A stretch of DNA of 64,000 nt from the NCBI RefSeq assembly GCF_018324685.1, contig NZ_AP023354.1, forward strand, positions 5,580,001 through 5,644,000, given 5' to 3'. The notes beneath the pieces were generated by a model. The model saw nothing but the letters and a program-made list of their open reading frames with translations. It was not told the origin of the DNA and did not search any database. How positions within the stretch are numbered: the stretch's first letter is position 1; the number at the start of each line of letters is the position of its first letter. Below are positions 2,165 to 7,934 of the stretch, in pieces. The DNA comes from Actinocatenispora sera. GTDB lineage: Bacteria > Actinomycetota > Actinomycetes > Mycobacteriales > Micromonosporaceae. A program made the translations under genes and the position numbers.

Positions 2165-3232
<1,068 letters not shown>

Positions 3233-3748
3233 TCAGGCTGTACTACGCAGGGTGGGGCTGGTGATGGAGCGGGCGCCGCGGCCGATCGCGACCAGGCCGG
3301 ACTGCACCATCTCCTTGATGCCGAACGGCTCCAGCATCCGCAGCAGCGCGTCCAGCTTGTCGCTGGTACCGGTGGCCTCGATGGTCAGCGCCTCCGGCGA
3401 GGCGTCCACCACCTTGGCGCGGAACAGCTGGACCGCCTCCATCACGTGGGTGCGGCTCTGCACGTCGGCGCGGACCTTCACCAGCAGCAGCTCGCGCTGA
3501 ACCGAGGCGTCGGTCTCCAGCTCGACGATCTTCAACACGTTGACGAGCTTGTTCAGCTGCTTGGTGACCTGCTCCAGCGGCGAGGATTCGACGTTGACCA
3601 CGATGGTGATCCGCGAGATGCCCGGCTGCTCGGTCTCGCCGACCGCGAGCGAGTCGATGTTGAACCCGCGCCGGCTGAACAGCCCCGACACCCGCGCCAG
3701 GACGCCGGGCTTGTCCTCCACCAGTACTGACAAGGTGTGCTTACTCAT
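3233..3748 (-). CDS. ilvN: Acetolactate synthase small (regulatory) subunit
   Basis: 171 aa from the chosen start. It binds and activates IlvB and carries valine feedback inhibition. The N-terminal ACT domain begins at MSKHTLSVLVEDKPGVLARV (residues 1-20) and includes the family segment GLFSRRGFNIDSLAVG. The C-terminal ALS_ss_C domain follows (LEPFGIKEMVQSGLVAIGRG at the end). An in-frame ATG ten codons upstream (position 3778) is rejected: it lacks a ribosome site, whereas 3748 has GCGAGGAC at good spacing and fits family N-termini. The ribosome site lies inside a GGAGCGAAGCGAGGA repeat element. Confidence 0.96.
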   Translation of the reverse strand: MSKHTLSVLVEDKPGVLARVSGLFSRRGFNIDSLAVGETEQPGISRITIVVNVESSPLEQVTKQLNKLVNVLKIVELETDASVQRELLLVKVRADVQSRTHVMEAVQLFRAKVVDASPEALTIEATGTSDKLDALLRMLEPFGIKEMVQSGLVAIGRGARSITSPTLRSTA

Positions 3749-3823
3749 GGCCGTCCTCGCTTCGCTCCGGGCGGCCATGAGGCACGAAACGCCGTGCCCA
3801 TGATTCGCTCCACTTCGTTTCGC

Positions 3824-5653
3824 TCATAGGTCGTCCTCATCGAAGGCGGGGCGGACACCCCGGGCGAACAGGATGTCGTCGTTGCCGACGCCGGGCGGCA
3901 CCATCGGCCACACCATGGCGTCCTTGCCGACCACGAACTCGGCGACCACCGGCCGGTCGTCGATGTCCATCGCCTGCTTGATCGTGGCGTCCACGTCGTC
4001 GGCCGACTCGGCCCGCAGCCCCACGCAGCCGAGCGCGTCGGCCAGCTTGACGAAGTCGGGCACCCGGTGCTTGTGGGTACCGAGGTCGGTGTGCGAGTAG
4101 CGGCCGTCGTAGAACAGCGTCTGCCACTGCCGGACCATGCCCAGGTTGCCGTTGTTGATCACGGCGACCTTGATCGGGATGCCCTCCAGCGCGCAGGTGG
4201 CGAGCTCCTGGTTGGTCATCTGGAAGCAGCCGTCGCCGTCGATGGCCCAGACGGTACGGTCCGGCCGGCCGGCCTTCGCCCCCATCGCCGCGGGCACCGC
4301 GAACCCCATGGTGCCGGCGCCGCCGGAGTTGATCCAGGTACCGGGCTTCTCGTACGAGATGAACTGGCTCGCCCACATCTGGTGCTGGCCCACGCCGGCG
4401 ACGTAGATCGCGTCCGGGCCGACCAGCTCGCCCAGTCGCTGGATCACGTACTGCGGGGCGAGCGTGCCGTCCGACGGCTCCTCGTAGCCCAGCGCGTACC
4501 GCTCGCGCAGGTCGCGCAGCTGCGCCCACCAGGCGGACAGTTCCGGGCCCTCGCCGCCGTTGTCGGCGATCTCGGCCCGCATCGCGGTCAGCAGCTCGGT
4601 CAGCACCCACTTGGCGTCGCCGACGATCGGCACGTCGGCGTGCCGGTTCTTACCGATCTCGGCCGGGTCGATGTCGGCGTGTACCACCGTCGCGTCCGGC
4701 GCGAACGAGTCAAGCCGGCCGGTCACCCGGTCGTCGAAGCGGGCGCCGAGGGCGACGATCAGATCGCTGCGCTGCAGCCCGTACACCGCGCTGACCGAAC
4801 CGTGCATGCCGGGCATGCCCAGGTGCTGCGGGTGCGAGTCGGGGAACGCGCCGCGCGCCATCAGGGTGGTCACCACCGGGATGCCGGTCAGCTCGGCCAG
4901 CTCCCGCAGCTGGTCGGTGGCGTGCGCCTTGAGCACCCCGCCGCCGACGTAGAACACCGGCCGCTGGGCGGTGCGCATCAGCCGCGCCGCCTGGCCGATC
5001 TGCTTGCCGTGCGGGTGCGTCGTCGGGTGGTAGCCGGGCAGGTCCAGCGCCGGTGGCCAGCTGAACGTGGTCTGCGCCTGCAGCACGTCCTTCGGGATGT
5101 CCACCAGCACCGGGCCGGGCCGGCCGGACAGCGCCAGGTGGAACGCCTCGGCGACCACCCGGGCGATCTCCGCCGGGTCCTTGACCAGGTAGTTGTGCTT
5201 GATGATGGGCAGCGTGATGCCGCAGATGTCGGCTTCCTGGAACGCGTCGGTGCCGATCAGGGCGGTGCTCTGCTGCCCGGTGATCGCCACCACCGGCACC
5301 GAGTCCATGTACGCGTCGGCGAGCGGCGTGACGAGGTTGGTCGCGCCAGGCCCGGAGGTCGCCATGCAGACGCCCACCTTGCCGGTGGCCTGCGCGTACC
5401 CCTCGGCGGCGTGGCCGGCGCCCTGCTCGTGCCGGACAAGTATGTGCCGGATCTTGGTGGAGTAGAACAGCGGGTCGTAGGCCGGCAGGATGGTGCCACC
5501 GGGGATCCCGAAGACGACCTCGGTGTCCAGCGCCTCGAGCGCGGCGATGAGTGCCTGGGCGCCGGTCATGGGAGTGCTGGTACCGGTGCCGCCGGGGCGG
5601 GGGGCCGGGCGGGCGGCCCGACTGGCCGCCGGCGGGGTTGCGGGTTTCGTCAT
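3824..5653 (-). CDS. ilvB: Acetolactate synthase large (catalytic) subunit
   Basis: 609 aa from the ATG at 5653. ThDP enzyme that condenses two pyruvates, or pyruvate with 2-oxobutyrate. Residues 1-28 are an Ala/Pro-rich extension. The catalytic Glu is in [17 protein letters not shown] (Glu76). The central FAD-binding domain and C-terminal ThDP motif ([19 protein letters not shown] to [12 protein letters not shown]) are complete. An open frame continues upstream to 5770 but would run through the attenuator terminator, so the internal ATG is preferred. The ribosome site is weak. Followed by ilvN after a 75-bp spacer. Confidence 0.96.
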
Positions 5654-5741: not shown

Positions 5742-5777
5742 CAAAAAGAAGGCCTGCGTGCCACACGCACACAGGCC
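5742..5777 (-). terminator. ilvB attenuator: rho-independent terminator
   Basis: On the minus strand an 11-bp stem (GGCCTGTGTGC paired with GCACGCAGGCC, one G-U) with a 5-base loop is followed by TTCTTTTTGCC. This is the terminator hairpin of a transcription attenuator. It lies between the leader peptide and ilvB, 28 bases past the leader stop codon. A T-run terminator is conspicuous in this GC-rich DNA. Confidence 0.85.
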
Positions 5778-5805
5778 GCGCACCGTCACCGGAGTGACGG
5801 TGCGC
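5778..5805 (-). promoter_or_regulatory. ilvB leader pause/antiterminator-side hairpin
   Basis: Perfect 12-bp inverted repeat GCGCACCGTCAC and GTGACGGTGCGC with a 4-base loop, directly abutting the terminator stem and overlapping the leader stop codon by one base. Its position means a ribosome stalled on or released from the leader peptide would control its folding. The exact set of alternative pairings was not computed. Confidence 0.7.
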
Positions 5806-5843
5806 TAAATAAGTACTACGAGGACGTGCCGACTCGACTGCAT
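5805..5843 (-). CDS. ilvB leader peptide (MQSSRHVLVVLI)
   Basis: Twelve codons and a TAG stop. Six of the last six residues are Val, Leu, Val, Val, Leu, Ile, exactly the end products of the pathway. The stop codon touches the first attenuator hairpin. No Shine-Dalgarno is present, and the start ATG coincides with the predicted transcription start, so translation is probably leaderless. Charged branched-chain tRNAs would let the ribosome finish and the terminator form; starvation would stall it on the Val/Leu/Ile codons. Actinobacterial ilvB leaders of this kind are known; this one is read directly from the sequence. Confidence 0.85.
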   Translation of the reverse strand: MQSSRHVLVVLI

Positions 5844-5878
5844 GAGCTAACTCTGACGCATCCCAGCGCTCCCGTCAA
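5844..5878 (-). promoter_or_regulatory. ilvBNC promoter
   Basis: Minus-strand TTGACG (5873-5878), 17-base spacer, CAGAGT (5850-5855), then six bases to the A of the leader ATG. Spacing is ideal for a sigma-A-like promoter and puts +1 on the start codon. Confidence 0.7.
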
Positions 5879-6003
5879 CCAGTCTCACATCGTGGTTCAC
5901 GCCACTTCTCGCCGGGCAGATCCCCTGGTTCCCACGCTCGTTGAAGGCTGAATGAGGGTTAAGTAAGTGTCCCGAGTGGTGGAACGAACGACCCGGGTCG
6001 GTG

Positions 6004-6031
6004 TTCACCGGCCGGTTTCGCGTGACAGACT
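6004..6031 (+). promoter_or_regulatory. ilvD promoter, leaderless
   Basis: TTCACC (6004-6009), 16-base spacer, CAGACT (6026-6031), then seven bases to the ilvD ATG. There is no Shine-Dalgarno before the ATG. The -10 resembles that of the divergent ilvB leader. Confidence 0.55.
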
Positions 6032-6038
6032 GTCCGCC

Positions 6039-7934
6039 ATGGCTGAACTGAGGTCGCGGACCTCCACCGCGGGACGCAACATGGCCGGCGCCCGGGCGCT
6101 GTGGCGGGCCACCGGGATGACCGACGACGATTTCGGCAAGCCGATCGTCGCGATCGCCAACAGCTTCACCCAGTTCGTACCCGGTCACGTGCATCTCAAG
6201 GACCTCGGGCAGCTCGTCGCCGGCTCGGTCGCCGAGGCCGGTGGCGTCGCCAAGGAGTTCAACACCATCGCGGTCGACGACGGCATCGCGATGGGCCACG
6301 GCGGCATGCTCTACTCGCTGCCGTCCCGCGAGCTGATCGCCGACGCGGTCGAGTACATGGTGAACGCGCACTGTGCCGACGCCCTGGTGTGCATCTCCAA
6401 CTGCGACAAGATCACGCCGGGGATGCTGATCGCCGCGATGCGGCTCAACATCCCCACCGTGTTCGTCTCCGGCGGGCCGATGGAGGCCGGCAAGACGGTC
6501 GCGATCGAGGGCATCGTGCACGACAAGATCGACCTGATCGACGCGATGATCGCCTCCGCCAACGACTCCGTCACCGATGACCAGCTCGACTCGATCGAGC
6601 GGTCCGCCTGCCCGACCTGTGGCTCGTGCTCCGGCATGTTCACCGCCAACTCGATGAACTGCCTGACCGAGGCGATGGGGCTCGCCTTGCCCGGCAACGG
6701 TTCCACGCTCGCCACGCACAGCGCGCGCAAGGCGCTGTTCGAGCGCGCCGGTCGGACCATCGTCGACCTGGCCAACCGGTACTACGGCAAGGACGACGAG
6801 TCGGTGCTGCCGCGCTCGATCGGCAGCCGGCAGGCGTTCGAGAACGCGATGGCGCTCGACGTGGCCATGGGCGGGTCGACCAACACCGTGCTGCACCTGC
6901 TCGCCGCGGCCCGCGAGGCCGGGCTCGACTTCGGCGTCCGCGACATCGACGCGATCTCCCGCCGGGTGCCCTGCATCGCCAAGGTGGCGCCGTCGGTCGC
7001 GAGCGGAGCGAGCAAGGACGGCGCTGCGGGCCCGGTCCGGATTTATCACATGGAGGACGTGCACCGGGCCGGCGGCATCCCCGCGATCCTGGGCGAGCTG
7101 GACCGCGGCGGGCTGCTGCACCGCGACGTACACGCGGTGCACGCCGACACGCTGGACGAGTGGCTGTCCCGCTGGGACGTGCGGGCCGCCGAACCCGCGC
7201 CGGAGGCGGTCGAGCTGTACCACGCGGCGCCCGGCGGGGTGCGCACCACCGAGGCGTTCTCCACCGACAACCGGTGGGACCGGCTGGACACCGACGCCGA
7301 GCACGGGTGCATCAGGGACGTGGCGCACGCGTACACCGCCGACGGAGGGCTCGCCGTGCTGCACGGCAACATCGCCGTGGACGGCTGCGTGGTCAAGACC
7401 GCGGGGGTACCGGAGGAGGTCTGGACGTTCCGCGGCCCGGCGAAGGTGTTCGAGTCGCAGGAGCAGGCGGTCGACGGGATCCTCGACAAGACCGTGCAGC
7501 CCGGCGACGTCGTCGTCATCCGGTACGAGGGCCCCAAGGGCGGGCCGGGCATGCAGGAGATGCTGCACCCGACCTCGTTCCTGAAGGGCCGCGGGCTGGG
7601 AAAGGCGTGCGCGCTGATCACCGACGGCCGGTTCTCCGGCGGGACCAGCGGGCTGTCGATCGGCCACATCTCCCCCGAGGCGGCCGGTGGTGGGCTGATC
7701 GCGCTGGTGCGCACCGGCGACGAGATCGCGATCGACATCCCGAACCGGTCCATCGAGCTGCTGGTCGACGACGCCGAGCTGGCCCGGCGCCGGGCCGCGC
7801 AGGAGGCGCGGGAGCGGCCGTACACGCCGGTCGACCGGCAGCGCACGGTGTCCGCGGCGCTGCGCGCGTACGCGGCGATGGCGACCGCGGCGAGCGACGG
7901 CGCCTACCGCGACGTGGACCAGATCGCCCGCTGA
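6039..7934 (+). CDS. ilvD: Dihydroxy-acid dehydratase
   Basis: 631 aa from the ATG at 6039, which gives the family N-terminus [21 protein letters not shown]. The open frame extends 24 codons upstream, but that part covers the promoter. The enzyme dehydrates the dihydroxy acids to branched-chain 2-oxo acids using an Fe-S cluster. Cluster and substrate motifs are [12 protein letters not shown] (Cys118, Cys122) and [18 protein letters not shown] (from Cys191). KGGPGMQEM and [12 protein letters not shown] are also present. Oddity: about 13 extra residues at roughly 319-335 between KVAP and [11 protein letters not shown], encoded by a GAGCGGAGCGAGC repeat. Divergent from ilvB. Confidence 0.96.

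Follow-up and report, generated by a model that had tools for sequence, protein, structure and literature searches.

A probable attenuator on a predicted leaderless mRNA before ilvBNC in Actinocatenispora sera, with a leader that stops ahead of its first hairpin

The 64,000-nucleotide stretch of the Actinocatenispora sera genome analysed here (the window) carries on its minus strand, in this order, a promoter, a leader open reading frame (ORF), a hairpin (hp1), an intrinsic terminator and the genes ilvBNC. The promoter comprises a -35 element TTGACG (5873..5878) and, 17 nt from it, a -10 element CAGAGT (5850..5855), both assigned from the sequence and from promoter-anchored scans; 6 nt separate CAGAGT from an ATG at 5843, which is also the predicted transcription start. 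The leader ORF (5805..5843; called from spacing and frame conservation) consists of 12 codons, MQSSRHVLVVLI, followed by a TAG stop at 5807-5805, and includes the putative sensor codons GUA-CUU (Val-Leu; 5811..5816), rare synonyms recognized from family conservation and from codon usage in the window. The 12-bp hairpin hp1 (5778..5805; folding and family covariation) takes the last base of the leader UAG as its first base, and the intrinsic terminator (5742..5777; terminator scan, folding and family conservation), a hairpin with a U-rich tract, begins on the base right after hp1: its 11-bp hairpin occupies 5777-5751, the tract at it reads TTCTTTTT, and its tail, at 5750-5742, is TTCTTTTTG. Downstream on the same strand lie ilvB (acetolactate synthase large subunit; 3824..5593; NCBIfam NF005860, 1097.9 bits, cut-off 881), whose start at 5593 was chosen from likeness to relatives, ilvN (acetolactate synthase small subunit; 3233..3778; NCBIfam NF008864) and ilvC (ketol-acid reductoisomerase; 2165..3178; NCBIfam NF004017). 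The gene ilvD (dihydroxy-acid dehydratase; 5967-7934, plus strand; NCBIfam) is divergent from ilvBNC; its ORF is listed as starting at 5967, 124 nt away from position 5843, where the leader is predicted to begin. Also on the plus strand, at 56-1996, a 646-amino-acid ORF contains GADRS and RDTGP tandem repeats, with hydrophobic segments nearer its end.

A preliminary description of this DNA had placed a promoter, leader, hairpin and terminator ahead of ilvBNC; sequence, scripts and folding find each element where it was said to be, and the NCBIfam matches identify ilvB, ilvN and ilvC downstream. The locus has two hallmarks of an attenuator, a short ORF with end-product codons before the first gene and an intrinsic terminator between that ORF and the gene. 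Folding of the leader gives -54.4 kcal/mol, where shuffles average -34.3 (z -6.4, with none of 200 shuffles equally low), and the hairpin part folded alone gives z -8.6. A simple terminator scan recovers the terminator; a simple promoter scan did not find a sigma-70-type site. An Rfam scan of the whole window at the gathering score gave no matches, and a second copy of the motif was not found in the A. sera genome with up to 2 mismatches permitted.

Leader-peptide attenuation of ilvB has already been reported in actinobacteria, as have leaderless ilvB leaders with terminators, in Streptomyces lividans and nearly so in Corynebacterium glutamicum, and the earlier statement that leaders with regulatory codons precede ilvB in this group agrees with reports for Streptomyces, Corynebacterium glutamicum and Mycobacterium tuberculosis, with Streptomyces coelicolor as a contrary case. 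The ilvL leader before ilvBHC of Streptomyces lividans resembles the A. sera locus in having a leaderless leader peptide (a predicted one in A. sera), Val/Leu/Ile codons and a terminator before ilvB; its peptide IlvL is MRTRILVLGKRVG, and its leaderless transcription is reported from RNA-seq (PMC8079986). In the three-hairpin attenuator of C. glutamicum ilvBNC, transcription is given as starting a single nucleotide away from the ATG of the leader, CUU and GUA are named as control codons, and both the valine codons and the leader ATG matter for regulation (PMC11857589). A hairpin adjoining the terminator is common to A. sera and the C. glutamicum/ilvB-II motif; in contrast to A. sera, the antiterminator and terminator there are proposed to share a GCC, with a further hairpin upstream (PMC11857589, PMC10272879). 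Such shared boundary bases, which characterize a C. glutamicum-type fast attenuator, are not found in the A. sera window. The M. tuberculosis ilvB1NC leader shares an upstream ORF rich in branched-chain amino acids, a regulatory GUA and a terminator, and replacement of its LVVI by AAAA (Ala) abolishes induction; it differs in the mutually exclusive antiterminator proposed for it (PMC13236596). Seliverstov et al. 2005 likewise found short ORFs holding Ile/Val/Leu runs, together with terminators, before ilvB in actinobacteria, but these ORFs are described as overlapping the terminator hairpins, and Micromonosporaceae are absent among the genomes listed in the available text (PMC1262725).

Of 150 sampled genomes of the family to which A. 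sera belongs, 148 have an IlvB match, that of A. sera among them. Upstream DNA was taken from 100 of the 147 other IlvB-matching genomes, the remaining 47 not being taken in, and these relatives cover 39 of the 41 genus labels with an IlvB match. A first peptide scan, for high Ile/Leu/Val density, missed most Micromonosporaceae leaders because they hold few such codons, and was replaced by promoter-anchored scans. The family scan demanded TTGAC and NANNNT with 16-19 nt between them and, 5-9 nt further on, a start codon, and it preferred a V-[LV] peptide tail; all 101 regions (100 relatives and the window) passed, each with a short ORF. Their spacer is 17 nt in 90 and 18 nt in 11, and the -35 element, of which the scan preset TTGAC, is TTGACT in 89, TTGACG in 8 and TTGACA in 4. 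When the start was picked by position alone, with no peptide rule, GTACTT lay in frame in all 99 regions that hold it. The frame is preserved over 13 start-to-sensor lengths, and a stop is kept despite changes of codon (UGA in 62, UAG in 37 and UAA in 2 of 101); both suggest real translation. All 100 relatives share the order of hp1 followed by the terminator, and at least 5 consecutive T follow the terminator in 98 of the 101 regions, L167, L168 and L170 being the exceptions. The leader arrangement is beyond chance.

The two hairpins are also conserved as structures. Across an alignment of 96 distinct sequences (duplicates removed), 97.9% of cells in the hp1 and terminator columns pair, and changes on both sides occur in 8 of 15 pairs of hp1 and terminator and in 7 of the 10 pairs of hp1. 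Cells changed on both sides number 108 in the two hairpins, against 30.8 in shuffles (none of 500 as high) and at most 30 when partners are slid out of register. This covariation is almost wholly that of hp1, the 5 terminator pairs counted being nearly invariant; one more helix of the terminator, in which columns 81-85 pair with 109-113, has 33 double-changed cells, 31 of them in one pair.

Spacing upstream of the ORF bears on how the leader would be translated. The -10 element is placed for a start at the start codon in every one of the 101 family regions, with 6-7 nt between the two, and a like rule of promoter, start and short ORF held in 67 of 81 named loci (80 loci and the window). Two Streptomyces loci (L060, L079), which encode the S. 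lividans IlvL peptide with GUA-CUU, have a gap of 7. From this spacing alone, the leader mRNA of A. sera is probably leaderless, and together with the family conservation it supports the suggestion that the branched-chain attenuator ahead of ilvBNC is complete and probably leaderless. Leaderless translation of such a leader is not new, S. lividans IlvL and the near-leaderless C. glutamicum leader having been reported earlier.

Within the peptide, conservation centres on two codons. GUA and CUU are each present in 100 of 101 family leaders, and they make up 4.5% of Val and 1.0% of Leu codons, respectively, in the window (44 ORFs selected by third-position GC; 17,106 codons). The codon after CUU varies, most often being ACC (Thr; 46/101) or AUC (Ile; 21/101), and 20 of the 101 leaders have just two Ile/Leu/Val codons after the start. 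The V-L-V-V-L-I run pointed out in the preliminary description is therefore not the conserved core; what the family keeps is GUA-CUU. The ACC after CUU stands alone (as in L088 and L113); threonine is the precursor of isoleucine, which may be coincidence. Arg or Cys follows GUA in three Nocardioides leaders (L047, L055 and L071; LVRTRRVS, LVCTRRVS), so that the pivot codon across actinobacteria may be GUA rather than CUU.

To compare architectures, 158 leaders were assigned, made up of the family set of 101 and the named loci. For the latter, L001-L007 were not included, L010, L011 and L046 were removed against double counting, 8 of L008-L080 yielded no leader and 3 a weak one, and L056 and L076 remained unassigned; L110 and L061, which lack an in-frame GUA, were measured from GUU. 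In 107 leaders (the 101 family leaders and L019, L021, L023, L026, L031 and L061) the ORF closes within 3-9 nt of its last GUA, in front of hp1; in the other 51 it runs through, with the stop 15-42 nt past GUA and, in 49, inside hp1. The A. sera ORF thus stops before hp1, unlike the Mycobacterium ORFs in this set, which run through hp1 arm 1, and unlike those of Streptomyces L060 and L079, which extend 18 nt past GUA into hp1. Across both groups, 151 of the 158 have hp1 beginning 6-9 nt downstream of GUA. Fifteen family leaders have one extra codon before the stop, and in 14 of these the distance from GUA to hp1 is still 8-9 nt, as the stop there becomes part of the hp1 base. Since the stop moves between clades while the interval from GUA to hp1 stays fixed, it is the sensor-to-hp1 distance, not the place of the stop, that is kept. 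Given the usual ribosome footprint, a ribosome holding GUA in its A site would extend just as far as the foot of hp1; were the stop in the A site instead, it would cover most of hp1 arm 1.

The spacer between hp1 and the terminator measures 0-2 nt in all 158 leaders. As stand-alone evidence it was dropped: 21 of 38 control terminators follow a hairpin of 10 bp or more, 18 of them with a 0-2-nt spacer, and 946 of 3160 shuffles show a short spacer with such a hairpin. Taken jointly, a GUA-hp1 distance of 6-9 nt, an hp1 of at least 10 bp and a spacer of at most 2 nt occur in 151 of 158 leaders, versus 168 of 3160 shuffles.

We consider it likely that these elements act as a ribosome-mediated attenuator of ilvBNC transcription, with a leader mRNA that is leaderless. 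RNA polymerase would start at or beside the leader ATG, and a ribosome loading on the 5' end would translate the 12 codons. Were charged Val or Leu tRNA in short supply, it would stall at the rare GUA or CUU with its front at the foot of hp1; hp1 would remain folded, and more polymerases would read through into ilvBNC. With ample charged tRNAs, the ribosome would reach UAG and open hp1, and the terminator, 27 nt ahead of the ribosome, would fold and stop transcription; in the absence of translation the terminator would be expected to fold as well. The start site, the stalling and the opening of hp1 by the ribosome are steps that we infer, and the sign of the starvation response is presumed by analogy with work on relatives.

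Alternatives can be weighed by whether they need a sensor at all, and by how its position would be conveyed to the terminator. If hp1 and the terminator were simply a constitutive tandem terminator limiting ilvBNC, the leader ORF would have little regulatory role. The two hairpins do fold together stably, adjacent hairpins are common at control terminators, and changing the candidate codons of S. coelicolor left ilvB regulation unaffected (Craster et al. 1999, cited in PMC1262725); yet rare sensor codons, frame and promoter-start spacing are kept over 39 genus labels, and codon mutants of relatives lose induction, which makes this account very unlikely. How the S. coelicolor leader switches without an evident antiterminator was noted as ambiguous (PMC1262725). 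A classical antiterminator, mutually exclusive with the terminator, whose 5' arm would pair upstream on a stall, has been proposed for C. glutamicum, where mutants fit the shared GCC boundary (PMC11857589), and for M. tuberculosis (PMC13236596). In the A. sera family, GUGCG of hp1 arm 2 can pair with CGUGC of the terminator 5' arm, the 5 column pairs each being retained in at least 91% of 96 sequences. Against this, folding with a ribosome stalled at GUA (163 leaders, with L010, L011 and L046 still included) left all terminator 5' bases free in 91 of 110 stop-before leaders, though among run-through leaders this held for just 31 of 53, with some of these bases sequestered in the other 22. Placing the ribosome on the stop gives weak pairing of the terminator 5' bases (median total -5 kcal/mol), and the sign would be wrong. 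A four-pair version of the arm2-arm3 helix has no cells changed on both sides, which equals shuffles, a count that near-invariant bases make uninformative. A scan for column helices of 4 or more pairs, with every pair retained in 80% or more of the sequences, found covariation in hp1 and the terminator only, bar a single cell in one variant of hp1 that is out of register; no covarying helix in conflict with the terminator appeared among the 96 sequences, the candidate bases being near-invariant. Covariation support was likewise not found for arm2-arm3, arm1-arm3 or leader-terminator antiterminators, again at near-invariant bases. In the window, hp1 (5805-5778) and the terminator (5777-5751) fold fully together with no shared bases and so give no sign of a classical two-state RNA switch, and we regard an antiterminator of this kind as unlikely here.

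The preliminary description favoured ribosome release as the switch: prompt release at the stop would free hp1 and let the terminator form, and delayed release would hold hp1 open. The stop does adjoin or overlap the base of hp1 in family leaders. In Escherichia coli, termination fell from about 90% to below 10% when the stop was moved from 28 to 5 bp before a terminator, and was maximal above 27 nt (PMC4824070). In stop-before leaders this distance is 26-54 nt (median 28) and reaches at least 27 nt in 91 of 105, so that a ribosome still at the stop mostly leaves the terminator far enough ahead for release not to be needed; against that argument, the run-through leaders, at 19-49 nt (median 25), reach 27 nt in only 21 of 49. 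In 51 of 158 leaders the ORF runs past the start of hp1 with the GUA-hp1 distance retained, and 14 of 15 family leaders with an added codon keep hp1 8-9 nt from GUA. Release does not, moreover, read amino-acid supply on its own. With the stop shifting between clades and GUA-hp1 held at 6-9 nt in 151 of 158 leaders, we do not favour release, which seems highly improbable as the switch.

The constancy of that distance admits a further reading of the proposed attenuator, in which slack in the RNA between ribosome and polymerase is limiting: hp1 would be a folding strut, not a base-pair competitor, and the sensor would act through space, not sequence. Distances were tabulated for 105 stop-before and 49 run-through leaders (4 leaders with more than 12 nt between GUA and hp1 left out), taking 8 as the distance between the terminator base and the active site. 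With a ribosome stalled at GUA and both hairpins folded, 20-25 nt (stop-before) or 16-23 nt (run-through) separate its P site from the polymerase active site; the figure given for a fully collided E. coli ribosome-polymerase pair is 28 nt (PMC11711091). A span of 16-25 nt falls short of this, so hp1 or the terminator could not close completely, which would weaken the terminator; once the ribosome stands on the stop and hp1 is open, the span comes to 40 nt or more (stop-before) or 33 nt or more (run-through), and the terminator fits. A coupled ribosome has been seen to lower hairpin termination in vitro (PMC10135430). Action through space would explain why the sequence of hp1 drifts while its place is fixed. 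In an equilibrium model with the 28-nt limit, the probability of an intact terminator base drops from about 1.0 to a median of 0.83 in the 105 stop-before and 0.49 in the 49 run-through leaders (0.76 in the window), falling below 0.5 in only 8 of the former and 26 of the latter. Such partial weakening at equilibrium counts against a strong, static form of the idea, and for this reason we hold the slack reading tentatively, as possible but not probable. If it is correct, there could be attenuators that have no competing stem, and their geometry would be the feature to search for.

What appears to be new is the family-wide variant whose leader ends ahead of hp1 and in many cases has very few sensor codons; among the literature matches listed, no identifiable paper describes it. 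An Actinoplanes RNA-seq study (Wolf et al. 2017) may have reported such a leader. The variant constitutes a natural experiment on the role of stop position, and the constant GUA-hp1 distance, together with hairpins that do not compete, makes switching without a clear antiterminator testable. The six stop-before leaders from outside the family belong to Frankiales metagenome-assembled genomes (MAGs), Blastococcus, Klenkia, Phytoactinopolyspora and a Mycobacteriales MAG; 4 of them have GUA-GUU or GUA-GUC instead of GUA-CUU, and L061 is without GUA. Within the family, L168 (G026) and L170 (G002) have the leader and hairpins as elsewhere and a degraded U-tract, so that attenuation may be weak or lost there.
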